A stretch of 45,875 nt of DNA from an uncultured Spirochaetia bacterium (GCA_947040495.1 CAMRBQ010000013.1:1-45875), one strand, 5' to 3'; positions 30,218-45,551 are shown, counted from the first letter of the stretch. Numbers and translations are program-made. The notes: generated from the sequence alone by a model not told the origin.

Positions 30218-32674
30218 CTATAAATTATCTCTTTTTTCATTGTCTCTTTCTTCCATTTTTATTTGTTTATTTATCTCTTCATTTACAATATCTTCCAAAT
30301 CAATATCAGTATTTTCAATTTCATCAAGTTCTTCAATTTCATCTTCAATCTCATCTTGTATTTCAACATCCATATCATCTGTATCTAATTCTAAAACATC
30401 TTCTTCTATAATATCTTTATCGCCAGCTAATAATTTTTCATCTATATCTAAAGAAACATTATCTATATTAAAATCATCACTTTGTTTTTCGATATTATTT
30501 TTTTTTATCTCTTTGCTAGTAATATTATCATTCTCTACAATATCATCTATATCTAAATCGTCTTTTTCTAATGTACTTAATTCACTATTATCAACTATAT
30601 TTTCTACTACTTGACGACTATCAGCAGTATCCAAAACTATAGCGTCATCAATATTTTCTTCTTCAACATCTAAAATATTTGCATCTATTTCTTTCTCTTT
30701 TTTTTCATCATTTATATTAGAATCAATTTTCTCTTCTTGATTTTCTCTATCTTTTTTATTATTTTCTTCTTGCTCAAGTTTATTTTTTATTTTTTGTTCT
30801 TTATTTTTTATTCTATTTTCTTTGACACTACTCAATCGTTGTTTTATATATAATAAAAATTGTTTGATTTTACCTGTAATAAATAAAATGATAATTATCA
30901 TAAATAATACTACTATAAATATAGCAAGCACCCCAACAAACCATTCACCAAACCTTGTATATATGCTGGTAACCTCATTTATTCTTACATCAGCAATAGA
31001 ATAACCGGGTTTCCATGCCTCCATAGTAGATACAACATGCCCATAAGCATCAATATGACCTGTTATACCAGAATTACCATTCTGTAAAACATCCTTTCTA
31101 TTTTCAACGGCACGAAAAACAGCCATCGAAAAATGCTCCCACAAGGCAATATCTTTATATGACCAAGCATCATCTGTTATAACAATTATAATATCAGCGC
31201 CTTTTTTAACAAATCGCCTTGTAAAATCACCAAAGCCACTCTCATAACAGATAGAAATAGCAAATTTGTATCCATCTCTAGGATGCTCAAATACAGTAGT
31301 TTCATCCCACTTACCCCAACCGCCAACACTAGCCTCATCAAGATGTTTATATATAAAATTCACCAAATAACTGAATGGAGGAACTGTCCTAAAGAATTTA
31401 CTATCTTCAAAAGGATATGCCTCTCCAAATGGCACCAATTTTATTTTTCCATATTGTCCTATTACAGCACCATTTGTATTTATAAATGTTGCCCCATTAA
31501 AGTATTCATACTTAGCTTTGGAGTTTGTATTAGTATTAGGGTGAATAAGTGAAGCACCTAGCAAATAGTAGCTCTCTGTAGCAACTACAGATTGATAAAC
31601 TAAATATGCATTATATATACCTGAATCAGTATATTTAAAATCATTCATATTAGAAAAATTTTGTTTTATAAAAGGCTCATAATATTGATATGAATTATTA
31701 ATAGCAGATTCAGAAAACACTATGAGAGAAGGTTTATGCAAAGCAGCCTCTCTTGCAAGCCTAGTTATCCGAGCCGCTACGATAGTGCCATTTTTAGATA
31801 TACCGTCAGGGGGCTCTTCATTTGTAAATATACTTGGGTTAAGTATTAGAGATTCTACAAATGCCCTTATTCCCTTAGCACCCTGAAGGGCAGGTTCTCC
31901 TGTATATATAGCTTTACTTCTATGATTTGGGTCAAATGATTTTTGAACCATACCTATCTTTACTTTTTCCATAGCGACATTATATTCATAATATCTACCA
32001 TTGATTTGATATACACCATAGGCAAATATAAGCATGAAAACCACTATCATTATAATAAAGTTATTTGTAAAGCAATTTGGAAACTTTAAATATATATCAT
32101 TAAACGATAGCCTATCATATTTATATTTAACTATCATATCAGCGATAATAGCATTAACAAAATAGATAACAAAACCGACACCAATAACCCCAACGATATC
32201 AGCTATTTGAATAAAATATATAAACTTCCATTGAGAATAGCCAATAAGCCCCCATGGGAATCCTAAGAAACCAACCGTTCTCATATATTCAAGTATAGAA
32301 AAACATGCTGGGATAATAAGCCATCTCATAGCAGGGAATTTTTTAATTAAAAACTTGGAAACGATGGCGGCTATTGCATAAAAAGTACTCTCAGCAACTA
32401 ATATAAAAAGTAAGCTTATCACCGCCACATAAACAGGCGTAGCTTTAAGCATGAATGCTGCAATCCAAAAAAGCAATACACCAAAAAATATAAATACAAA
32501 TACAGAAAATGAAAGGAAGAATCTTTTAATAGTAATATCACTATATATGATTATACACATCGGCACAAATGCGACAAAAGCCGATAAGTAAAAATTAAAC
32601 ATTGGGAATGCCAGTATCATTAAAATAGCTGATAATGCTGAAAGTATAAAAAGTGTCTTCTTGTTAAAAATCAA
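30218..32674 (-). CDS. lnt: Apolipoprotein N-acyltransferase with long acidic C-terminal tail
   Basis: Inner-membrane enzyme that N-acylates lipoproteins, the last maturation step in diderms. Residues 1-225 hold the membrane spans. The nitrilase-like domain (about 235-560) has Glu322 (VFSESAI), Lys410 (YGKIKLVPFGEAYPFE) and Cys476 (SICYESGFGDF), matching the Glu-Lys-Cys triad. A final span lies at about 578-600. Beyond it is a 218-residue tail (601-818): a basic Lys/Glu-rich start, then extremely Asp/Glu-rich low-complexity sequence, predicted cytoplasmic and disordered. Normal Lnt is about 510 residues. The start is TTG with AGGAT upstream. It lies in the pgpH-ybeY-corC-lnt order. Confidence 0.92.
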   Translation of the reverse strand: MIFNKKTLFILSALSAILMILAFPMFNFYLSAFVAFVPMCIIIYSDITIKRFFLSFSVFVFIFFGVLLFWIAAFMLKATPVYVAVISLLFILVAESTFYAIAAIVSKFLIKKFPAMRWLIIPACFSILEYMRTVGFLGFPWGLIGYSQWKFIYFIQIADIVGVIGVGFVIYFVNAIIADMIVKYKYDRLSFNDIYLKFPNCFTNNFIIMIVVFMLIFAYGVYQINGRYYEYNVAMEKVKIGMVQKSFDPNHRSKAIYTGEPALQGAKGIRAFVESLILNPSIFTNEEPPDGISKNGTIVAARITRLAREAALHKPSLIVFSESAINNSYQYYEPFIKQNFSNMNDFKYTDSGIYNAYLVYQSVVATESYYLLGASLIHPNTNTNSKAKYEYFNGATFINTNGAVIGQYGKIKLVPFGEAYPFEDSKFFRTVPPFSYLVNFIYKHLDEASVGGWGKWDETTVFEHPRDGYKFAISICYESGFGDFTRRFVKKGADIIIVITDDAWSYKDIALWEHFSMAVFRAVENRKDVLQNGNSGITGHIDAYGHVVSTMEAWKPGYSIADVRINEVTSIYTRFGEWFVGVLAIFIVVLFMIIIILFITGKIKQFLLYIKQRLSSVKENRIKNKEQKIKNKLEQEENNKKDRENQEEKIDSNINDEKKEKEIDANILDVEEENIDDAIVLDTADSRQVVENIVDNSELSTLEKDDLDIDDIVENDNITSKEIKKNNIEKQSDDFNIDNVSLDIDEKLLAGDKDIIEEDVLELDTDDMDVEIQDEIEDEIEELDEIENTDIDLEDIVNEEINKQIKMEERDNEKRDNL

Positions 32675-32805: not shown

Positions 32806-33639
32806 CTATATAGGCTCTTTTTCTTCTTTTTTTTGTTTTTCTTCTTTGTTATGTTTGTTATCTTTACGTTCTATCTTTATAGTAGTTACTATATTTCCTC
32901 TTTTACCAACAATAGTAAATACATAACTTTTATATTCTATAGTTTCATGTCTTTTGGGCAATCTCCCCAAATATGAAAAGAGAAATCCTCCTATAGTATC
33001 AGCCCCATCTGTTGGCAAACTTGGCAGCTTAGCTTTAGTATTAAAATCTTCTATTTTCATTCTAGCATCGAGCAAATAACCACCATCTCCACTATCCCTT
33101 ATAATAGCCTCTGGCTCATCAAACTCATCATTAATTTCGCCCACTATCTCTTCAAGGATATCTTCCATACTAACAATACCAGAGAATCCACCATACTCAT
33201 CAACTATCATTGCTATATGTACCCTTTTTTCCAAAAATTCATAGAGTAATTTCATCGGAGAGATTGATATTGGGACAAAATATGGCTTATGCAAAATTCG
33301 TTTCAATGAAAATTTTTTCTCATTTATTCCAACTAAATCTTTTATATACAATATTCCCACGATATCATCTATACCATCTTTATAAATAGGTATTCTAGAA
33401 TTTTGAAATTTATTAAAAACTTTTAAAAGAGCAGTATAAGTAATATCAATATGTACCATAAACACATCAACACGTGGTATCATTATATCCTTTATATTTT
33501 TATCTTTTATAGACACAGTATTTAATACAATATTACGCAATTCTTTTGATAAACTATTTAAATCAATTGTATTGCTTGGTTTGTTACCCTTGTTACTCGG
33601 CCCTTCTTTTACACTTTGTTTTTTACTTTTCCGTCTCAT
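32806..33639 (-). CDS. corC: CorC/HlyC-type CBS-pair protein
   Basis: Cytoplasmic protein of the hemolysin C/CorC family, linked in E. coli to cation handling. From the chosen ATG it has 277 residues: a basic N-terminus, the IMIPRVDV motif (about 52-59), two CBS domains (about 60-175, including DIVGILYIKDLVG and IVDEYGGFSGIVSMEDILEEIVGEI), then a CorC_HlyC domain ending near TTIKIERK, and a Lys/Glu-rich tail. It lacks the DUF21 membrane domain. I start it at 33639, which overlaps ybeY by 17 bp, rather than at an upstream ATG (33732) that would overlap ybeY by 110 bp and add an atypical N-terminus. Same order as E. coli ybeY-corC-lnt. Confidence 0.87.
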   Translation of the reverse strand: MRRKSKKQSVKEGPSNKGNKPSNTIDLNSLSKELRNIVLNTVSIKDKNIKDIMIPRVDVFMVHIDITYTALLKVFNKFQNSRIPIYKDGIDDIVGILYIKDLVGINEKKFSLKRILHKPYFVPISISPMKLLYEFLEKRVHIAMIVDEYGGFSGIVSMEDILEEIVGEINDEFDEPEAIIRDSGDGGYLLDARMKIEDFNTKAKLPSLPTDGADTIGGFLFSYLGRLPKRHETIEYKSYVFTIVGKRGNIVTTIKIERKDNKHNKEEKQKKEEKEPI

Positions 33640-34066
33640 AATTTTTCTTTTTTTTAAGAATCTCCTTATATATTTTTTCCATCTTACCCCAATTCTCTTG
33701 AAGAGAACTAGGACTATATGTATGATGCACACCCTTCAGATGCAAAACACCATGTAAAATCAACATCGACAAAGATTCTTTAATCTTTTCTTTCTTATAT
33801 TCTTTTATTACCCATTCATACGATATAATTACATCGCCCGCATAATAATCATAATTATCGTCATCGTCATATGTAAAAGTAAGTATATCTGTAGATTTAT
33901 CTTTTTTTCGATACTCTTTATTATACTTTTTTATACTTTTATTATCAACAAATATTAATGATGCGTTCATCGGCAAGCCAACTTCTTTTAACCCCATTCT
34001 AAAAATATATCTATAATATTTCTGCGGTATAACGTATTTTGTATTATTTATAACAAGCGTACTCAT
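33623..34066 (-). CDS. ybeY: Endoribonuclease YbeY
   Basis: Metal-dependent RNase acting in rRNA maturation and ribosome quality control. The zinc site H-x3-H-x5-H is His105, His109 and His115 in HGVLHLKGVHH. The residue before the last histidine is His114 where most YbeY proteins have Asp (GYDH). The second signature YRKKDKSTDILTF (52-64) and AGDVIIS (76-82) are present, with an acidic loop DDDDNYDYY between them. The 147 residues are normal. The start ATG overlaps the pgpH stop as ATGA, so translation is coupled, and corC overlaps its end by 17 bp. Confidence 0.93.
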   Translation of the reverse strand: MSTLVINNTKYVIPQKYYRYIFRMGLKEVGLPMNASLIFVDNKSIKKYNKEYRKKDKSTDILTFTYDDDDNYDYYAGDVIISYEWVIKEYKKEKIKESLSMLILHGVLHLKGVHHTYSPSSLQENWGKMEKIYKEILKKKKNYETEK

Positions 34067-36294
34067 CCTTTTTTTGAGCCCTCCTCTTCAATTATTTTAG
34101 GGTAAGCTATTCTTTCATGAAATGCTACCATAATTAACTGAAAAGCCCTTTTTTGTATAAGGTCAATATCATGAAGCGTAAAACCACTATCATTAAGCTC
34201 ACCTTCTAATATTTTAGCATTTATAATTTCTTTTATAAGTTGCCTTATATTTTCTTTGGTATGCTCGCCTAATGCTCTACTTGCAGCCTCTATAGAATCT
34301 ATCAACATTATAATTGCAGTAATCTTAGACTTTGGTTTTGGTCCAGCATATTGGAATAAATTTTTATCCACTTCTACATTTTCCTTCAATGCTAAAGCAT
34401 AAAAATACCTTATAATACTTGTACCATGATGTTCCTTTATTGCATCAATTATTTTTTCCGGCAATCCATATTCTCTTGCAATCTCAACACCAAATTTTAC
34501 ATGGTTTTTTAATATCGAAGCTGAAAGAGTAGGTTTTAAATTTTTATGCCTACTATCTAGTATAGTCGTATTTTCTATAAAATAAAGGGGGTTTTCCATT
34601 TTTCCTATATCATGATAATATCCAGAAACCTTTGCTAAAAGTGGATTCTCACCTATATCTCTTGCAATAACCTCCACTAAATTGCCCATGCTTATCGAAT
34701 GATTATATGTTCCCGGGGCTTTTTTTTGCAAATTTCTTAGTATAGGATTATTTAAATCAGCAAGCTCTTGTAGCTTAAACACAGTTGCTGTATCTAAAGC
34801 ATATTCAAATAAAGGCAAAAATAATGATATCAATACAACCTGTATTATAGAACTAAAAAATGCCAAAATCGTAGCAATTAAAAATGATGATAATGATATG
34901 TCTGATATAATTAAAAGTATTACATTGCCTAGCAAATATATCAAAAATATCAGCAATCCAAGTAAATATATTTGACTGCGTTTATTTATTTTTTCAGATA
35001 TTAAAAGAGAGGCCATACTTGCTGTAAATAGAATTAATGTACTTATTAAATTTGGTTGTACAATAATAATCGTAGTCAAAAATGTTACAGTATAGATTAT
35101 AAAATATGAAAAAGCCTTGCCGCTTATCATTGTATTTATGACAACTACAAATGGCAAAAATGTATATAAATAAAATGGTATGCTATACTCACTAATTATA
35201 TCATTTGTAAGAAAATATGTTTTGGTTAGATGTATGATTAAAAATATAAACAGCATTTCAAATATTAAAAGTGTATATTTTTTTGTATCTATAAAAAAAT
35301 CATTTTTATAATATATAGACGTAAAGGCAACTATAGCAAAGATTAAAAATAAAAATAAAGCCATACCTACAAGCACTCTAATATTATATGTAAATGCATT
35401 GGAATATATCGACTGTATGATTAAGAGTTTATCCTCTGTAACCTTTTCACCTGTATTCACTATTGTGTAGCCTTTTTTAACAATATCATATACAGGTTTT
35501 ATTTCATTCAGAAGTTCATTCATCGATTTTTCTGTTTCTTTATCGCTATACATCAAATTGGGCGACAAAAATGTTGTAACCAATACCTCTAATGTATCTA
35601 TTTTATCTGCTCTTAAAAACTGAAATTCTTTTTCTATTATTCCACTAATATTTTCATTTATATCTTCCCAAAAATAGACAGTATCTGCATCAATAGTTTT
35701 TTCTTGTACGATAAATTCATCCGAACGATATACCCTTATTCCATTGCTCTCGATACTTGTTATAATACCACTTGTAAGTATAGATTTTTCGATAACCCCA
35801 CTGCTATACAGTTTATCTAATATAAATAAAACCTTTTGTTCATATGTATTTTCAGTCTCATAACGAATGATTTCATTAAACATAAAAACATCAAAAATAT
35901 ATGGGAAGTCATTTTGGAAACTCTCATACATCATTTTTGTCGATATATTCATCTGTTGCGACTTTTCTATAAAATCGAAAAAGCCCACAACCTCATTTTT
36001 TGAAACAGCGGCTATTGATTTTTTTTCTTCAAAGACAGGCTTAAATGTTTTTACAATTTTATCTTTAAGTTTTTGTGTTTCTATTTTATTTTCATATCTC
36101 AACGTTTTACTAGCTACAATAGGGGCAGAAACAGTATCACCCAATTTTAGGATACTCGCAGTAGATACATATATTTTGGAAAATAAAAAAATCAAAAAAA
36201 GATAAAGAATCAAGGCTAAAAACACTTTATATATAAAGTTAAAATTTAACCTGCGAATACTATTTTCAAAAAAGTCTTTTAATGTCTCTCTCAT
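34063..36294 (-). CDS. pgpH: PgpH-type membrane HD phosphodiesterase (c-di-AMP)
   Basis: Degrades c-di-AMP in characterised relatives such as Listeria PgpH. The 743 residues contain an N-terminal span (about 25-45), an extracytoplasmic 7TMR-HDED domain (about 46-300), seven hydrophobic spans (about 305-500), and a cytoplasmic HD domain. HD residues are visible in TYNHSISMGNLVEVIARD, SGYYHDIGKMENPLYFIEN, LKNHVKFGVEIAREYG and IKEHHGT. The domain order and length match the family. A promoter lies at 36313-36341, giving a leader of only about 12 nt and no strong ribosome site. It heads the pgpH-ybeY-corC-lnt run. Confidence 0.92.
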   Translation of the reverse strand: MRETLKDFFENSIRRLNFNFIYKVFLALILYLFLIFLFSKIYVSTASILKLGDTVSAPIVASKTLRYENKIETQKLKDKIVKTFKPVFEEKKSIAAVSKNEVVGFFDFIEKSQQMNISTKMMYESFQNDFPYIFDVFMFNEIIRYETENTYEQKVLFILDKLYSSGVIEKSILTSGIITSIESNGIRVYRSDEFIVQEKTIDADTVYFWEDINENISGIIEKEFQFLRADKIDTLEVLVTTFLSPNLMYSDKETEKSMNELLNEIKPVYDIVKKGYTIVNTGEKVTEDKLLIIQSIYSNAFTYNIRVLVGMALFLFLIFAIVAFTSIYYKNDFFIDTKKYTLLIFEMLFIFLIIHLTKTYFLTNDIISEYSIPFYLYTFLPFVVVINTMISGKAFSYFIIYTVTFLTTIIIVQPNLISTLILFTASMASLLISEKINKRSQIYLLGLLIFLIYLLGNVILLIISDISLSSFLIATILAFFSSIIQVVLISLFLPLFEYALDTATVFKLQELADLNNPILRNLQKKAPGTYNHSISMGNLVEVIARDIGENPLLAKVSGYYHDIGKMENPLYFIENTTILDSRHKNLKPTLSASILKNHVKFGVEIAREYGLPEKIIDAIKEHHGTSIIRYFYALALKENVEVDKNLFQYAGPKPKSKITAIIMLIDSIEAASRALGEHTKENIRQLIKEIINAKILEGELNDSGFTLHDIDLIQKRAFQLIMVAFHERIAYPKIIEEEGSKKG

Positions 36295-36792: not shown

Positions 36793-38874
36793 TTATTTTA
36801 TTACATATGAATTATAAGATACATTACCTTCCACATCTATAACCTCAATAGTTACAGAGTTTATATTAGTACCTTCAATCAATATAGAAAAATTTTCTTT
36901 CTTATTATCTAAAAGTCCATCTTCAGGTGTAAGATATCTCCATCGACCATCAAAAGAAGCGAAACGAACAGATGATAAAACAGAATATTCATCCGTAACA
37001 GTAAAGCTTATCATTCTCTTTTTCGCATCCACAACAAAAGATACATTACTTATTACAGGGGCATCTTTATCATGCTTTACATTAGAAATTTCAATATAAT
37101 TAGTTTTAGTTTCAGCTGTTCCATTATTAAGATAATCACTTGCGACTACCTTAAAATCATAAATTCCTGAAGGCAACCTATTAGCATCAAATATAAAATA
37201 ATTTGTCTGTGTATCTTTTAACAAAGACGCATAATTTGTATCTCCAATTAATTTATAATATAATGAATATGTAAGTTTATCTTTATTTGGATCATTGCCA
37301 CTCCATATAAGCATCGCCTGACCATCTTTCAAAGCAGGTTTTTTATATAATTCCATTTCCAAATTCTTTTGCTGATACGATGTTACAAGCATCGGTTTAT
37401 AAATATCTGGCCTTAGGTTTTCAGGCAAATATGAAAATGACAATGAAGTTATAACAGGAGTGAGCGTTGTATCTTTTGTAGTTAGAGTAATTTTATATTG
37501 TAAAAAACGCGATTTTGGGCTTTGTATTTTGCCATCGCTTGATATAGTTTCAAAATCACTCCAAGTAGAATCAACTGTAAATGTATTTCCTGTTCTTGTC
37601 TGTATTTCAAAGCCTGTGCCATTTGGAAGTGTCGCATAATAATCTGCAATACCAAATCTACTTAAATGCCCCGTATCAAGAGAGCTACTTATAAGAGTAC
37701 CAGTTTTGGCATACTCTTTTGTAAGTTTATATACTTTGCCTGTCTTTGATGCTAAATATATATAGTTATCTGTAGAAGATATACTAGTTATGCTCTGCCC
37801 ATCAAAACTCATAACATAATTAAGTATACCATTACTACTTATCTGATATAGTTTGCCTTCATCACCAGTAACAAAATATATATTATCCATATTATCATTT
37901 ACCAAACCAAATACCAAAGTCTGGCTAAGATTAAATATTTTTTGTACTACATTTCCACCATTTGCTTTATACAAAGAATTTTTAAATAACTTGTTGGCAC
38001 CATTTTGAGAATTATTATCACCACCTGATATTTTAGAAAGTATTTCATTTTTCTCTCTATCAGCTGTGCCAAAAAATACATCTCCATCACTATTCATCGC
38101 AATCGAATGCACTTCGCCCTCTGCTGTATCATAAACAACATTATAACTATAGTCATCATTTATGCTTAAAAGTAGCCCTCTACCCGCTGTACCAACATAC
38201 ATAGTATTACTATTTTTATCAAAAGATAAATCCATAGCATGCATTTCATTTAACAACATGATTTCTTTAAAAGAAGGTTTATCATTTAATATATTACTAT
38301 TTTCATCAAATGATAAATCAATTAATTTACTAATATCTTCTAATACCAAAATCCTAGCATTTTTTCCGCCCACTGCTATATAGAGTGCACCATTTTCATC
38401 AAATTCCATATCCCAAACATAAATATCATCAAGCTGTACTCTATTTTTCATATCACCATTTTTATCATAAACATATAGCTTAGAATTAGGCGAACTTGCA
38501 GCAAATATAGTACCATCATCTGCAACAACAATAGATGTTAGATTCTCTTCTTCTACTTCTGTAAACAATGAAAATGTTTTTTCTTTTGCATTAAATTTAT
38601 ATATTTTGCCTTTAGTGCCCCCCGTAACAACATATATAGTATCATCATTCAAAGCATATATTTTCCAAACAAGAGGCTCAACAATGCCATCAATAGTTAT
38701 AGTGGCTGGGGCAAGTTTTAAGGTATTATTTTCGCTAATCATAGTCCCATCATGGGTCGCATTTGCAAAAAAATCAGTATTTTGTGTGGAAAAAAACTTT
38801 GTTACTACTGAATATGAAGGCAAAGTAAATATAAAAATCGATAGTATTATAAAAATATATTTATTAAATTTCAT
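36793..38874 (-). CDS. Exported beta-propeller protein with C-terminal beta-sandwich domains
   Basis: Predicted periplasmic or surface protein of 693 residues. Residues 1-22 form a signal peptide ending in SYS. About residues 45-395 contain repeated propeller-like blades (for example VADDGTIFAASSPNSKLYVYD, cut here as VADDGTIFAASS, and FDENGALYIAVGG, MNSDGDVFFGTAD, NMDNIYFVTGDEGKLYQI). The C-terminal part (about 420-693) looks like two or three fibronectin/Ig-type domains, including SLYYKLIGD and SGIYDFKVVASDYLNNG. No catalytic motif is seen, so a binding or sensing role is likely. Its ATG overlaps the stop of the upstream S55 peptidase gene as TAATG, indicating coupled translation and probable joint function. 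Confidence 0.75.
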   Translation of the reverse strand: MKFNKYIFIILSIFIFTLPSYSVVTKFFSTQNTDFFANATHDGTMISENNTLKLAPATITIDGIVEPLVWKIYALNDDTIYVVTGGTKGKIYKFNAKEKTFSLFTEVEEENLTSIVVADDGTIFAASSPNSKLYVYDKNGDMKNRVQLDDIYVWDMEFDENGALYIAVGGKNARILVLEDISKLIDLSFDENSNILNDKPSFKEIMLLNEMHAMDLSFDKNSNTMYVGTAGRGLLLSINDDYSYNVVYDTAEGEVHSIAMNSDGDVFFGTADREKNEILSKISGGDNNSQNGANKLFKNSLYKANGGNVVQKIFNLSQTLVFGLVNDNMDNIYFVTGDEGKLYQISSNGILNYVMSFDGQSITSISSTDNYIYLASKTGKVYKLTKEYAKTGTLISSSLDTGHLSRFGIADYYATLPNGTGFEIQTRTGNTFTVDSTWSDFETISSDGKIQSPKSRFLQYKITLTTKDTTLTPVITSLSFSYLPENLRPDIYKPMLVTSYQQKNLEMELYKKPALKDGQAMLIWSGNDPNKDKLTYSLYYKLIGDTNYASLLKDTQTNYFIFDANRLPSGIYDFKVVASDYLNNGTAETKTNYIEISNVKHDKDAPVISNVSFVVDAKKRMISFTVTDEYSVLSSVRFASFDGRWRYLTPEDGLLDNKKENFSILIEGTNINSVTIEVIDVEGNVSYNSYVIK

Positions 38875-40613
38875 TATTTTCTAGCTCCCTTTACATGTAT
38901 TATAAGCGATTTTGCTCCCAACACGGGAAAGCCTAAATCTAGGCTACTATCTATTGCAGTAAGAAGTGCCGCTTTATCTGTAGTAGACTCACTTCTAAGC
39001 ATACCATAATAAGAAGGTGGTAAATGTAGAAATGATACCCCCTCTATAATCAAAGCATCGGCTGAAGAATACATCCATGTTTTTAATGTACTCTCACTAT
39101 ATGATTTACTATATATACTCATAAGGTCATCTAATTTCCTAATCTGATATTTTGAAGGCATATAAGCCCTTTCTACACCTTCATATGTATATTCATTACC
39201 AACATATATTGTATATAATCCTTCATCTACTGTACTTGGTATATCTAAAGGCATAATATAATATTCTTTATCTTCTTGCTGATACCTTCTAACACCAACT
39301 TTCAAATGAACTTTTTCACCCGCATAGGCGCTCTCTTCAATAAGAGACATCTCTTCGATGAAAGCAAAATCTATTGGATTATGATTTAGTTTTATTCGTA
39401 TTTCTTTTATATTTATAGGCTGAAATTGATTAAATAACATAAACTCTATTGGCGATAGTATACTTTTGATTAAAGAAGCATAAGAATCAGCAGATTTAAA
39501 ACTTACAACCCTGCTTGTTACAGAATAAGGCTTTTCAAAATAATCAGTATATATTTCATATGATATAGAAAAAGTACCCGCCTCATTGCCGCCCCTAGAT
39601 GTTATAGAACTAAGTATCGACATGGAAAGTAGGCTAGAAAAATACTCACTATTATTTAATATACGAAAATTTAATTCTTCGCCAACTCCATTAACTAAGC
39701 TATTCTCTATCTTTAATTGAACGGGTATCATTAGATGATCAGGCATCTGCCCATAAACACCAGCCACCCCATAAGTATCATCATAAGTCGTATAACCCAC
39801 ATATGAAGTAGGACCACCTAGCTTAAATGATATCGACCTTGAAGGTATAATCGAATTAATATAAGCTTTGGCAACAGGTGCTTTTAATAATCCCGTCCCA
39901 TACATAGCATGCCCAAATAAAAGATATTTGTTATCATCAGTAGTCGTGACAGTACCAACACCCGCCATGCTTAAATCGCCATCGACAAGCACAATAGCAG
40001 CAGCATCACCATTAAAAAATTTTTCACCACTATATTTTATATCGCCACTACCCCCACCAGATGCGGGGAAAAATCCTTTACTCTCATAAAATTTAGAGTA
40101 ATAATTGAATGCTATATCGCTGAAACCAGAGAAAAACATAGGTATTGGCAATGAAGTAGCTGAGCTCATATTCATAGTGCTACTTTGAGATAATTTATTT
40201 AATGAAGCAATATTAACATTATCATTTTGCTCCATATCATAAATATCCATCATATACTCAATAGGCGTGACACCAATTAAAGGGTCCTTTGAAAAAGACC
40301 AACCAAATGCCAATGCCCCTGCTAGTTTATCTTCTATATATATAGGAGAACCGCTCATCCCAGAGGCGACCCCTGTATGTTCAAAATATTCTCCTTCTAT
40401 ACGTATAAGTATTGCATCTTTACCAAAACGATATTTTTTCAATACAGAAACAACAGTAACATCAAATTTTGATATATTTGTCCCCTGTATTATCGTATAC
40501 CCATAACCTTTCATGCCTTCTTTAACATCTTTTACAAACATTATATTTTCTTGTGAAAACAATTGAAAAAGTGAAATATTTATAAAAATTAATAGTAATA
40601 TGATTTTTTTCAT
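38874..40613 (-). CDS. Exported S55 (SpoIVB-like) serine peptidase domain protein, permuted motif order
   Basis: Predicted periplasmic protein of 579 residues with a signal peptide at about 1-20. The serine motif is GVASGMSGSPIYIEDKLAGA (81-100, nucleophile Ser87) followed by GVTPIEYM. The histidine motif VGTVTTTDDNKYLLFGHAM (219-237, His235) lies after it and is followed by SISFKLGGP. In SpoIVB the GH motif comes first and GMSGSP near the end, so the order here is permuted. The rest (about 290-579) is beta-rich and unassigned, with no PDZ recognised. The start has no ribosome site, and the promoter -10 is only 7 nt upstream. Coupled to the propeller gene downstream. Protease activity is inferred. 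Confidence 0.8.
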   Translation of the reverse strand: MKKIILLLIFINISLFQLFSQENIMFVKDVKEGMKGYGYTIIQGTNISKFDVTVVSVLKKYRFGKDAILIRIEGEYFEHTGVASGMSGSPIYIEDKLAGALAFGWSFSKDPLIGVTPIEYMMDIYDMEQNDNVNIASLNKLSQSSTMNMSSATSLPIPMFFSGFSDIAFNYYSKFYESKGFFPASGGGSGDIKYSGEKFFNGDAAAIVLVDGDLSMAGVGTVTTTDDNKYLLFGHAMYGTGLLKAPVAKAYINSIIPSRSISFKLGGPTSYVGYTTYDDTYGVAGVYGQMPDHLMIPVQLKIENSLVNGVGEELNFRILNNSEYFSSLLSMSILSSITSRGGNEAGTFSISYEIYTDYFEKPYSVTSRVVSFKSADSYASLIKSILSPIEFMLFNQFQPINIKEIRIKLNHNPIDFAFIEEMSLIEESAYAGEKVHLKVGVRRYQQEDKEYYIMPLDIPSTVDEGLYTIYVGNEYTYEGVERAYMPSKYQIRKLDDLMSIYSKSYSESTLKTWMYSSADALIIEGVSFLHLPPSYYGMLRSESTTDKAALLTAIDSSLDLGFPVLGAKSLIIHVKGARK

Positions 40614-41462: not shown

Positions 41463-42377
41463 TTATTCTATTATATGAACCTCATTTTTTAGCCTAATAG
41501 AAGTAGTATCGAATACTTTTTTTTCTATTTTTTTGATGAGATTATATACATCGCTTCCATTTGCATTTTTATAATTCACAATAAAATTGGCATGAGTAGG
41601 CAACACCATCGCCCCACCAAGTTTTATCCCACGCATATGGGATGCATCAATTACTTTGCCTGCAATCATATTTGTATTATAATCATTTAAAAATATTGAG
41701 CCCGCTGAGGGATAAGAAAATTGCTTTTTTTTAATTCTATCATTTTTATAAGAAATCATCTTTTCTTTTATGATAGCCTTTGCATTTTTGATATTGGACA
41801 TGTCTCTTTTTTTTAGATTAAAAGTAGCATTTACTATTATATATTTATTATTTTGAAAAACACTTTTTTTATATTCAAAAAGGCAGCCCTTATTATCTAT
41901 CTCTGTATAATTATTATACTCATCGATAATACCCACACTTTGGATAATATTAGACATCTCACTGCCATAACATCTTGCATTCATATATACAGCACCGCCA
42001 ATACTCGCAGGCAAATAAGATAAAAACTCAATACCCGTTAGAGAATTTTGATATGCCGCTTCTACCAATTTATTAATATGAGCACCCGACTGGGCGACAA
42101 TAGTATTTCCGCTAATTTTTATACTATCAAGCAAGCCCATATATATTATATTTTTATTTATATATTTATTAACAAATAAAATATTACTACCACAACCAAG
42201 AACAATATATTCTATACCATTATCATCAAAATATTTTTTTAATATAGCCAAGGCATTTATAGTATTGACTATATAAAAATGCCTCGCTATAGATTTTATA
42301 AGAAATGTATTATACTTTTTTAAGGCAACATTTTGCCTATAAAAAATATCTTTATTTTGAAGTATGTCTAGTCGCAT
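41463..42377 (-). CDS. murB: UDP-N-acetylenolpyruvoylglucosamine reductase MurB
   Basis: Reduces UDP-GlcNAc-enolpyruvate to UDP-MurNAc in peptidoglycan synthesis, with FAD. FAD-binding signatures are VLGCGSNILFV (about 59-69) and ASIGGAVYMNARCYGSEM. The catalytic serine lies in YPSAGSIFLND. GIKLGGAMVLPTHANFIVN and the final LKNEVHIIE (catalytic Glu) complete the family pattern. The 304 residues fit type II MurB, which lacks the tyrosine loop of the E. coli enzyme. It begins 2 bp after the pgi stop and is certainly cotranscribed with pgi. It gives UDP-MurNAc for a cell wall whose meso-DAP is made by Ddh. Confidence 0.93.
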   Translation of the reverse strand: MRLDILQNKDIFYRQNVALKKYNTFLIKSIARHFYIVNTINALAILKKYFDDNGIEYIVLGCGSNILFVNKYINKNIIYMGLLDSIKISGNTIVAQSGAHINKLVEAAYQNSLTGIEFLSYLPASIGGAVYMNARCYGSEMSNIIQSVGIIDEYNNYTEIDNKGCLFEYKKSVFQNNKYIIVNATFNLKKRDMSNIKNAKAIIKEKMISYKNDRIKKKQFSYPSAGSIFLNDYNTNMIAGKVIDASHMRGIKLGGAMVLPTHANFIVNYKNANGSDVYNLIKKIEKKVFDTTSIRLKNEVHIIE

Positions 42378-42379
42378 TA

Positions 42380-43714
42380 CTAATTGTTTATTCTATCCTT
42401 TAATATTTTGTTCTGCTCTTCAAATCCCTTTTTGCCAAGCAAAGCAAACATATTTTTCTTATATGCCTCGACACCGGGTTGGTCAAATGGATTTACCCCA
42501 AGTATATAACCCGAAATAGCACATCCCTTTTCAAAGAAATATATAAGGCTACCTATAGTATAGGCACTAATCTCATCAATATCTATTATAATATTAGGGA
42601 CATTGCCATCGACATGAGCCATGACTGTAGCAAGCAAGGCATTGGTATTAATTTCATGCATAGATTTACCATCAAGATAATTTAATCCATCAAGGTCGCT
42701 CTCTTGCTTTTTAATAATTATATCATTATTTTCTTTGGCAACTCGAATAACTGTTTCAAAAATATTTCTACGCCCATCTTGAATATACTGACCAAGCGAA
42801 TGCAAATCTGTAGAAAAATTAGCGGAGGCAGGAAATATTCCTTTTTGGTCTTTACCCTCGCTCTCGCCATAAAGCTGCTTCCACCATTCAGAAATATATG
42901 AAAGCCTTGGTATATAATTTACTAACACTTCAGTCGTAAGCCCTTTGTTATAAAGGCAATTTCTTAGACATGCATAAAGTATAGCTGGATTTTTTGTTAT
43001 ATCATTTTCTTCTATGATAGAACACATAGCATTCGCACCCTCAAGCATAGCTTTAATATCGATACCCGCAACAGCTATTGGGATAAGCCCTACAGGTGAA
43101 AACACAGAAAATCTACCGCCAACATCATCTGCGATTACATAAGTACGATATGAATTCTCTTTTGAAAGTGTTATAAGTGCCCCTCTCTTTTCATCAGTGG
43201 TTGCAATTATTCTTTTTGAAGCACCGTCTGCTCCATATCTTTTTTCAGCATATTCTTTTAATAATCGAAAAGCCATGGCAGGTTCTGTTGTTGTGCCACT
43301 TTTTGAAATGACATTTATATAAAAATCTTTGCCTTCCAAAAACTCTAGTAATTGTTTATGATAATGCCCACTTATATTATGCCCAGCATATACAATTGTC
43401 GGGCTACCCTTCTTTGATATGTCAAATGGATTTATAAAACTTTCGATAACAGCACGAGAGCCCAAATAAGAGCCGCCTATTCCTATAACAACGAGCACCT
43501 CACTATTCTCTCTTATTTCTTTGGCTAATACATTTATATTATCTGTTAATTTAAGCATCTCTTGAGGAAGTCCCATCCAACCTAAAAAATCATTGCCCGC
43601 ACCATTTTTATTTTTTAATTTATCATTAGAAGAATATGCTAATTCCTTCATATAATCTAATTCATACTCATTCAAAAAATTTAATGTATTTTTATAATTA
43701 ATAGATAAAGACAT
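42380..43714 (-). CDS. pgi: Glucose-6-phosphate isomerase
   Basis: Interconverts glucose-6-phosphate and fructose-6-phosphate. The 444-residue form is the shorter Firmicute/Thermotoga-type Pgi. Signatures are VVIGIGGSYLGSRAVIE (about 76-92), NVISKSGTTTEPAMAFRLL, DDVGGRFSVFSPVGLIP, the catalytic YGESEGKDQKGIFPA, FSTDLHSLGQYIQDG, and the C-terminal GVNPFDQPGVEAYKKN with the active-site Lys. AAGGAGA lies 8 nt before the ATG, and a promoter lies at 43751-43778. murB follows 2 bp after the stop. The link is metabolic: fructose-6-phosphate feeds amino-sugar and peptidoglycan precursors. Confidence 0.97.
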   Translation of the reverse strand: MSLSINYKNTLNFLNEYELDYMKELAYSSNDKLKNKNGAGNDFLGWMGLPQEMLKLTDNINVLAKEIRENSEVLVVIGIGGSYLGSRAVIESFINPFDISKKGSPTIVYAGHNISGHYHKQLLEFLEGKDFYINVISKSGTTTEPAMAFRLLKEYAEKRYGADGASKRIIATTDEKRGALITLSKENSYRTYVIADDVGGRFSVFSPVGLIPIAVAGIDIKAMLEGANAMCSIIEENDITKNPAILYACLRNCLYNKGLTTEVLVNYIPRLSYISEWWKQLYGESEGKDQKGIFPASANFSTDLHSLGQYIQDGRRNIFETVIRVAKENNDIIIKKQESDLDGLNYLDGKSMHEINTNALLATVMAHVDGNVPNIIIDIDEISAYTIGSLIYFFEKGCAISGYILGVNPFDQPGVEAYKKNMFALLGKKGFEEQNKILKDRINN

Positions 43715-43750
43715 ACTATAACTCTCCTTAAAATCTGTCTGATTAAAACC

Positions 43751-43778
43751 AGTGTAGCATAAAAAATAAAAAAAACAA
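43751..43778 (-). promoter_or_regulatory. pgi-murB promoter
   Basis: Minus strand TTGTTT (43778-43773), 16-bp spacer, TACACT (43756-43751), leader about 30 nt. Confidence 0.55.
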
Positions 43779-43811
43779 TTTATATTATAATTAAAAATAT
43801 TTATTTAGAAT

Positions 43812-44762
43812 CTATCGTCTTAAAGACATTCTTCTATATGTATGTACCTCGCCTCTTATAACCAATGAAATAGCCATGGCATTCATCGGGTAAGACATCC
43901 CACCTAAGCCCGCATCACCTATATGCATAATATCTGCTCCAGCCATTTTAGACATAAGAGCAATTTGTTTAATTGTATCAATTGGGGCATTTTCTTGTGC
44001 CGTACCAATGGCAGTTTTCGTTAGAAGTTTTAATTTCTTTGCTTCATCAATTAAAACTTTCACAGCCTCCATAGTATAGCCGGGCAAAGTACCGGGTGCT
44101 CCAAACATAATAACATCAGCACCAGCATTTGCTATTTTTCTAACATTATATAAAGAATCAGTATTCCCACTACCCGCTCCATGCATTTTTCCTGACACTA
44201 TCATCATTTTACCTTTTGCAATTTGAGCTAATTCTTCAGTAGATTTTGCAATTGTATCGATTGATACTTTTGTATGTGGATTGCCTGTAAGAACAATATA
44301 GTCAAATCCCAAATCTAATGCATGTTTAAAATTTTCTTTTGTAGCCTTAAAACCTTCGGGATAGTCTACCCCATCGGCTACAGGTTCTAAGTTAGTTCCA
44401 ATAAAACGCCCCGTATATTCTTTTATGCGATGTACACAATCTTTTTTTTGTTTTGATTTTTCATATAAATCTAATTGGCTTTTCAAAATACTTTCTATAC
44501 GAGGCATAGTATCATCTATTTCAGCTTCATCTAGTCCATAAATAAAAGGGTTGATAACATCAAAAGTATTTAGTGTTATCATATCAACTCCAAAAGAAGC
44601 AAGAAGTTCAGGGTCAGACACAAGTTCAACCAGTGGACGCTTACTGATTAAAGCCTCCGCCATAACAGAACGCCCTTCTGAGCCTGCTATGGTTTTAATT
44701 AAAGTTTTTGTATCCATTTTTAAAGTTTCAGTTTTATTTAATTCAAAAATTCTTTTAGGCAT
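43812..44762 (-). CDS. Predicted TIM-barrel protein (DUF7916-like), unknown function
   Basis: Cytoplasmic protein of 316 residues with the strand pattern of a TIM barrel: GVDMITLNTFDV, FDYIVLTGNP, KMMIVSGKMHGAGSGNT, GADVIMFGAPGTLPGYT, LLTKTAIGTAQE and GADIMHIGDAGLGGMSYP. The N-terminal SEGRSVMAEALISKRPLVELVS (about 28-49) is, from memory, typical of a family often mislabelled as haloacid dehalogenase and now DUF7916. No HAD motif is present. It follows the ABC ATPase gene by 12 bp, so it belongs to that transporter operon and may act on the imported compound. The family number should be treated as recalled, not checked. Confidence 0.6.
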   Translation of the reverse strand: MPKRIFELNKTETLKMDTKTLIKTIAGSEGRSVMAEALISKRPLVELVSDPELLASFGVDMITLNTFDVINPFIYGLDEAEIDDTMPRIESILKSQLDLYEKSKQKKDCVHRIKEYTGRFIGTNLEPVADGVDYPEGFKATKENFKHALDLGFDYIVLTGNPHTKVSIDTIAKSTEELAQIAKGKMMIVSGKMHGAGSGNTDSLYNVRKIANAGADVIMFGAPGTLPGYTMEAVKVLIDEAKKLKLLTKTAIGTAQENAPIDTIKQIALMSKMAGADIMHIGDAGLGGMSYPMNAMAISLVIRGEVHTYRRMSLRR

Positions 44763-44774
44763 CTCTTATATCCG

Positions 44775-45551
44775 TTATTTTTTTTCTGCTAAATACTCTT
44801 TATACACTTCTTTCCAAATTTCATTTTTGATATCATTAAACTCTTGTGTAAATTTAACTTCGGTAGTGCGTGGATAAGAGATAGGTATGTCAACAATACT
44901 TTTAATACGACCGGGACGTGGACTCATAATAACCACCCTTTGTGATAAAAATACAGCCTCATCAACATCATGAGTAATAAAAAAACATGTCTTTTTTTCT
45001 TCTTGCCAAGTAGCAAGCAATTCAGATTGTAGTTGTGTTCTAGTCTGAGCATCTAATGCCCCAAAAGGTTCATCCATTAAAAGCACTCTAGGATTAACAG
45101 CATAAGCACGAGCGATAGCAACACGCTGCTTCATACCACCTGAAAGCTCTTTTGGAAAAGCATTCTTAAAATCTAACAGACCAACAGATTTAAGATAATG
45201 ATCCACTTTTTCATCGACCACTGCCTTAGGTAGTTTTTGTATTTTAAGCCCGAAGGCAACATTTTTAGCCACAGTAAGCCATGGAAATAAAGCATATTGT
45301 TGGAAAACAACTCCTCTATCTGAACCTGTTCCAAAAATTGGATTTCCATCAATTTCTATAGTACCAGAAGTTGGAGTATCAAGCCCTGCTAAAATATTTA
45401 ATAAAGTGCTTTTTCCACAACCAGAAGAACCAATAACACATACAAACTCTTTTTCTTTTATATCTAAGTTTACATTGTTTAATGCATGCACATCTTGAGT
45501 GGTTCCTTTATAAATTTTACTGACATTTGAAATATGTACTTTTATGCTCAT
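44775..45551 (-). CDS. ABC transporter ATPase, nitrate/sulfonate/taurine type
   Basis: Energises uptake through the adjacent permease. The 258-residue protein has Walker A GSSGCGKST (41-49), the Q-loop region GVVFQQYALFPWLTVAKNV, signature LSGGMKQRVAIARA, Walker B RVLLMDEPFGALD and the H-loop FFITHDVDEAVFL. The overall sequence is of the SsuB/TauB/NrtD group, which also includes thiamine-precursor (ThiZ) importers. The ATG overlaps the permease stop as ATGA, and the TIM-barrel gene follows 12 bp downstream. No binding-protein gene is inside the window; it may lie beyond the right edge. The substrate cannot be assigned. Confidence 0.93.
   Translation of the reverse strand: MSIKVHISNVSKIYKGTTQDVHALNNVNLDIKEKEFVCVIGSSGCGKSTLLNILAGLDTPTSGTIEIDGNPIFGTGSDRGVVFQQYALFPWLTVAKNVAFGLKIQKLPKAVVDEKVDHYLKSVGLLDFKNAFPKELSGGMKQRVAIARAYAVNPRVLLMDEPFGALDAQTRTQLQSELLATWQEEKKTCFFITHDVDEAVFLSQRVVIMSPRPGRIKSIVDIPISYPRTTEVKFTQEFNDIKNEIWKEVYKEYLAEKK

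Follow-up and report, generated by a model that had tools for sequence, protein, structure and literature searches.

An uncultured member of the Spirochaetia encodes an exported peptidase of the SpoIVB (S55) type in which the two halves of the catalytic core, both homologous to SpoIVB, stand in swapped order. Its gene lies in a 45,875-nucleotide stretch of DNA (GCA_947040495.1, CAMRBQ010000013.1:1-45875; "the window" below is this whole stretch), next to a gene for an exported beta-propeller protein, a pairing that recurs in several phyla. We read the protein as a SpoIVB/S55-type peptidase with a circularly permuted two-barrel chymotrypsin-like fold, a single active site and a housekeeping role in the cell envelope, and assign this reading a probability of about 0.72. 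To our knowledge, it is unusual for a chymotrypsin-like protease to be circularly permuted in nature, and we found no description of such a permutation for SpoIVB-type proteins in the open-access literature, outside which most subscription papers fall. The features of the two genes are as follows.

38874..40613, minus strand: permuted S55-type serine peptidase gene, 579 amino acids (aa), open reading frame (ORF) with an ATG start
40551..40613, minus strand: predicted hydrophobic signal peptide, residues 1-21, without a lipobox Cys (sequence inspection; helix 3-16 in the AlphaFold2 model)
40239..40544, minus strand: Ser half, residues 24-125, six-stranded barrel and trailing helix, equivalent of the SpoIVB/chymotrypsin C-terminal barrel (Pfam, hhalign, AlphaFold2)
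40344..40361, minus strand: GMSGSP motif, residues 85-90, with the nucleophile Ser87 (codon 40353-40355; conservation)
39705..40004, minus strand: His half, residues 204-303, counterpart of the N-terminal barrel in SpoIVB/chymotrypsin (hhalign, AlphaFold2)
39909..39911, minus strand: codon of His235, proposed catalytic base (conservation)
39780..39782, minus strand: codon of Asp278, proposed third triad residue, in the His barrel at the turn joining strands 5 and 6 (conservation, DSSP, motif)
38877..39686, minus strand: C-terminal region, residues 310-579, beta-rich, with no SpoIVB counterpart (AlphaFold2, hhalign)
36793..38874, minus strand: partner gene, exported 693-aa protein, YncE/virginiamycin-B-lyase-like beta-propeller with a C-terminal beta-sandwich region (predicted structure)

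Swapped order of the two S55 halves

A preliminary description of this gene had placed a serine motif (Ser87) ahead of a histidine motif (His235), taken both blocks to be homologous to SpoIVB, and concluded that the core is circularly permuted. Both positions read from the ORF as described; the GH containing His235 sits in GTVTTTDDNKYLLFGHA (the GTVT...GH block). Pfam PF05580 (Peptidase_S55) matches at a level that chance does not explain, with 38.1 bits against a cut-off of 25, covering residues 23-112 only and profile columns 111-199 of 210. The SpoIVB equivalog model TIGR02860 likewise matches with its end (columns 297-395 of 402, 37.5 bits), far short of its equivalog cut-off of 305.25. 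The single relative in the PDB found by sequence is SpoIVB itself (9lnf): phmmer aligns residues 24-122 with its residues 218-316, and a sub-threshold piece, 215-242, with 118-147, so that the two pieces cross.

Profile-profile comparison by hhalign set a 77-sequence alignment of the family against 20 canonical SpoIVB domains from Bacillota genomes. The Ser half aligns with SpoIVB columns 126-194 (Prob 99.3, E 3.5e-20) and the His half with columns 12-112 (Prob 87.1, E 4e-6); over the whole core the two alignments are crossed and not collinear, as a SpoIVB-like linear order would have had them. The C-terminal region of the protease finds no match among the SpoIVB domains by hhalign (Prob 0.6). 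In a plain hidden Markov model (HMM) search, the Ser half is found in 76 of the 77 proteins and a His-side piece also in 29; these His-side pieces, individually weak (independent E-values 0.03-0.8), nearly always start just before the GH motif.

Ser precedes His in every homologue whose two motifs were both located, and the Ser-first profile aligns collinearly with 322 unique homologues that have a complete core, which excludes an assembly artefact. Moreover, both orders coexist: a canonical SpoIVB and a permuted copy occur together in six of the 17 genomes tested, among them Sporomusa, Propionispora and Pelosinus. In these six the canonical protein matches the profile at about full length (columns 2-210 or nearly) and the permuted one at about columns 105-209, within ORFs of 600-800 aa. 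Crossed alignments and coexisting orders, together with the swapped halves of the predicted structure and its half-length structural match (below), bear out the permutation relative to SpoIVB.

Predicted fold and catalytic residues

The AlphaFold2 model, run on the 77-sequence alignment, has a mean predicted local distance difference test (pLDDT) score of 87.8 and a predicted template modelling (pTM) score of 0.86, and consists of two six-stranded barrel-like halves in swapped order. According to DSSP the first barrel comprises strands 35-41, 47-62, 65-73, 90-93, 96-104 and 112-117, followed by a helix (118-125), and the second comprises strands 204-212, 215-225, 229-232, 246-256, 263-279 and 282-287; a 78-residue linker (126-203), partly of low confidence, lies between them. 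In the first barrel, strands 3 and 4 flank Ser87; in the second, His235 follows strand 3 and Asp278 occupies the turn from strand 5 to strand 6. We take these loop positions to be those of chymotrypsin Ser195, His57 and Asp102. Judged by strand counts, the model thus has the two six-stranded barrels of the PA clan, with Ser, His and Asp at chymotrypsin-like loop positions. Foldseek retrieves SpoIVB 9lnf (probability 1.00, 28% identity, 110 columns, about one half in sequence order), MucD (0.99) and Deg8 (0.95), the latter two over about 110 columns. It returns no reliable match spanning both halves of the protease, as would be expected of a different sequence order. A mean-field coupling analysis of the 322 sequences (effective number about 237) yields many strong pairs within the barrels and one strong pair across the halves, I124-G282 (z 9.7, rank 9), a coupling that would place the helix following the Ser barrel (I124) against the His barrel (G282). 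Together with the pTM score, this pair speaks indirectly for Ser, His and Asp coming together in a single site.

Conservation of the active site is read directly from the homologues: among the 322, position 87 is Ser in 320, position 235 is His in 320 and position 278 is Asp in 315, and G85 and G88, the glycines around Ser87, never vary across the 77-sequence set. Loss of Ser or His is always joint and occurs in two cases, both the third copy of a Brachyspira tandem array (GMNGSP and YIDNE, with Arg for Asp); still an intact ORF, this copy is a candidate pseudoprotease by its residues. The second tandem copy keeps Ser and His and has Asn for Asp278 in four loci. The triplication itself, present in some Brachyspira, spans L036:2562-7863 and L071:5896-11197.

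SpoIVB differs at the acid. It has Asn at the place matching Asp278 in 18 of 18 readable motifs, an equivalence established by a gapless 13-residue local motif match (G....D/N...G[VI].G), hhalign itself gapping that loop. Conversely, SpoIVB Asp363 and Thr393, kept in 20 of 20 SpoIVB sampled, have no conserved equivalents in the 322 permuted homologues (S/E/T/H/D/G at position 73, A/S/G at position 102). In the SpoIVB crystal structure Asp363 lies about 24 angstrom from His236, and its catalytic role has been doubted (PMC12502668). Ser87-His235-Asp278, in permuted order, is the likely triad, and the simplest reading of the sequences is that the canonical acid was retained in the permuted family and replaced in SpoIVB. 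For SpoIVB, whose Asp363 is so far from the active site, the permuted family suggests that the canonical acid belongs elsewhere, where SpoIVB has Asn.

A separate observation concerns two cysteines near the catalytic histidine (equivalent to residues 220 and 233), which occur in 30 of the 322 homologues, always both or neither, mainly in Acidobacteriota (including L058, L067 and L068); they are likely to form a disulfide across the beta-hairpin.

The protein thus shares with SpoIVB (MEROPS S55 / PF05580; Bacillus subtilis, PDB 9lnf) the GMSGSP nucleophile region, the GTxT...GH base region and the GxxxxD/NxxxG[IV]xG segment. It differs in its swapped barrels, in Asp278 (Asn in SpoIVB), in lacking equivalents of Asp363 and Thr393, in its extra C-terminal half, in the pairing with a propeller gene and in two further points that the preliminary description had made correctly: it has no PDZ domain (none in Pfam at E<=1), and it occurs outside sporulation (no sporulation genes among the neighbours examined). 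Within the C-terminal region there is perhaps an Ig-like sandwich at about residues 402-473; the homologue L063 has a weak Pfam match to the Ig-like ASH domain (E 0.0068). HtrA, DegQ and MucD have the chymotrypsin-like barrels, the periplasmic location and the Ser-His-Asp triad that are predicted for the permuted protease (the MucD match covers about one half), but they have the canonical His-Asp-Ser order and PDZ domains and show no Pfam-level sequence match to it.

Propeller partner and outer-membrane gene context

The ATG of the partner gene shares one base with the stop codon of the protease gene. The encoded protein is confidently modelled as a beta-propeller with C-terminal beta-sandwiches (pLDDT 89.9), and its propeller is close in fold to virginiamycin B lyase and YncE (TM-score up to 0.82 by target length); the fold is common to all three, and the partner adds the beta-sandwich region. 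The gene pairing is recurrent: a propeller homologue stands directly downstream on the same strand in 27 of 28 Brachyspira-like loci, 28 of 30 in Planctomycetota, 27 of 30 in Myxococcota, 20 of 30 in Acidobacteriota and 51 of 78 in a mixed named set, and in 0 of 29 in Bacillota. Four-base overlaps or close spacing are common at the protease-propeller junctions, which suggests co-translation. The propeller is probably a substrate-binding or regulatory partner of the protease.

Members of the permuted family, usually in single copy, occur widely among bacteria that mostly have two membranes and mostly do not form spores. A named scan found it in Acidobacteriota, Planctomycetota, Myxococcota, Gemmatimonadota, Latescibacterota, Aminicenantes, Spirochaetota, Synergistota, Negativicutes, Halanaerobiales and others. 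In samples of single phyla it is present in 102 of 109 Acidobacteriota (94%), 38 of 149 Planctomycetota, 32 of 104 Myxococcota and 37 of 150 Bacillota, and in the spirochaete phylum in 43 of 61 genomes searched, that of the window counted. L061 (VFZL01000001.1), titled an Acidimicrobiia metagenome-assembled genome, was considered as an actinobacterial member and rejected: the tree puts its homologue inside Acidobacteriota, its flanking gene families are common to Acidobacteria, and the genome is probably misassigned.

Bacillota are a useful test because both one- and two-membraned lineages fall within them. Among the 150 Bacillota, 37 have the protease, 37 have Omp85 and 35 have both (Fisher p 2e-29, uncorrected for relatedness), and 29 of these 35 carry Omp85 on the strand of the protease gene, 1-12 kb downstream of it. 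Genes of the mlaE or tamB/DUF748 type occur in 21 of 30 Bacillota loci (flanks of about 1.5 kb). In diderm Firmicutes the protease gene is found near tamB, mlaEFD and Omp85; in the named set it stands directly before mlaE in Negativicutes and Synergistales loci and before tamB in Halanaerobiales. In the tree, the proteins of Bacillota, Synergistota and Bipolaricaulota form one group (Shimodaira-Hasegawa-like approximate likelihood ratio test, 99), outside which all propeller-linked proteins fall; the Bacillota members lack the adjacent propeller gene, unlike the spirochaete locus.

One protein in the outer-membrane proteome of Veillonella parvula, Vpar_0521, has a SpoIVB domain and is conserved among diderm Firmicutes; it was published with no assigned function, as an N-terminal SpoIVB domain with a C-terminal DUF1090, and with no mention of permutation (PMC5491611). 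Judged by this description and by the gene context in Negativicutes, it very probably belongs to the permuted family. The Veillonella Mla paper describes mlaEFD-tolC-tamB; we found no SpoIVB-type gene in its text.

Short permuted forms also occur in Bacillota (L367, L368 and L369; matched stretch 334-429 residues). L368 and L369 carry GASGSP/GTSGSP motifs, and their genomes have no Omp85 or TamB matches.

Function, origin and competing readings

According to the proposed mechanism, the protein would be exported by its signal peptide, which is read directly from the sequence, and would act beyond the cytoplasmic membrane, in the periplasm or at the outer membrane. The chain would enter at the Ser barrel, with the His/Asp barrel second, and the two would pack, most likely, into one ordinary active site, Ser87-His235-Asp278. 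The enzyme would then cleave envelope proteins as a housekeeping protease, a function to which genomic association points. Together with a secreted propeller that may present substrates or regulate it, the protease would form a two-gene unit in spirochaetes, Acidobacteria, Planctomycetota, Myxococcota and others; in diderm Firmicutes its gene lies instead within an outer-membrane/lipid-transport cluster.

Several observations weigh against this. Homology of the His half is significant at the profile-profile level only, single-sequence matches remaining weak (independent E-values 0.03-0.8), and beyond the one strong cross-half pair the coevolution signals are of modest size, so that phylogenetic noise could account for them. 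The association with Omp85 has exceptions: short divergent forms occur in two Bacillota that have neither Omp85 nor TamB, and the protease is absent from two that have them. It is also missing from many diderms: control genomes including E. coli, Bacteroides and Caulobacter gave no match over the cut-off, nor did 18 of the 61 spirochaete-phylum genomes. For the Brachyspira-type protein, activity, triad geometry, substrate, cellular location and the role of the propeller are predictions.

The preliminary description had left open whether the gene encodes an envelope protease or a fold reused for another purpose, and of these the former is much better supported; the propeller partner, the outer-membrane gene link and the Asp278 candidate were not part of that description. 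Instead of forming a working protease, the S55-derived blocks might have been recruited to the envelope for binding or scaffolding: catalysis is predicted from sequence, and the Brachyspira paralogue kept as an intact ORF without Ser, His and Asp indicates that non-catalytic use may occur. However, Ser and His are each kept in all but two of the homologues, over more than 10 phyla, and change together, not singly, while the glycines around Ser87 do not vary; we consider reuse unlikely. It is quite unlikely, too, that the active site is shared by two molecules, one contributing the Ser barrel and the other the His barrel, so that the chain but not the monomeric fold would be permuted. A long and partly low-confidence linker separates the barrels, and such a domain-swapped assembly would yield the same coevolution signal, but overall confidence in the monomer model is high, and a linker of this length allows closure within one chain.

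Homology of the catalytic domain with SpoIVB, together with export, would also fit a role in signalling, in which an intramembrane protease or a sigma factor is activated, comparable to the part that SpoIVB plays for pro-sigma-K. Against this stand the missing PDZ domain, the neighbours free of sporulation genes, the presence of a canonical SpoIVB besides the permuted copy in spore-formers, and a diderm Firmicutes context of outer-membrane biogenesis, and we regard such a role as very unlikely.

As to the origin of the housekeeping envelope protease, other chymotrypsin-like proteases put the His barrel first, so that its permuted order presumably arose from a canonical ancestor. Since the permuted family retains the Asp and SpoIVB does not, descent from a modern-type SpoIVB would be unlikely and a common older ancestor more likely. 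More tentatively, and on balance doubtfully, the family may be an ancient and previously undescribed outer-membrane-maintenance protease on a naturally permuted chymotrypsin fold, predating the main diderm split, coupled to the propeller in one branch and to TamB/Mla/Omp85 in the other, and keeping the canonical Ser-His-Asp triad whose acid was replaced in SpoIVB. The permutation is in any case not a one-genome curiosity: the family is abundant in many phyla, and domain libraries would name its members after a sporulation peptidase. For outer-membrane upkeep in hard-to-study bacteria it provides a specific candidate protease, with a partner gene at hand.

Other leads were rejected. A second S55 match in the same genome (C81:98-382, E 0.026) falls in an ORF resembling a nuclease of the exodeoxyribonuclease III type. 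A link to anti-phage defence came down to an LmuA profile match that is marginal (E 0.0033, 64 residues) and was taken as chance. A phage origin was set aside too, tblastn having found no match to the protease among phage records. An Mla context within the window was discarded as well, the ABC ATPase gene at 44775-45551 being followed by a DUF7916 gene and not by mlaD. That part of the window (41463-45551) holds the ABC ATPase gene, then the DUF7916 gene, then phosphoglucose isomerase and MurB-type genes. Elsewhere, 32806-36294 holds a 7TM-HD family phosphohydrolase gene, directly followed by ybeY and then a CBS/CorC gene, and 30218-32674 encodes an apolipoprotein N-acyltransferase of 818 aa with a long C-terminal extension, its Lnt and nitrilase matches ending near residue 570.

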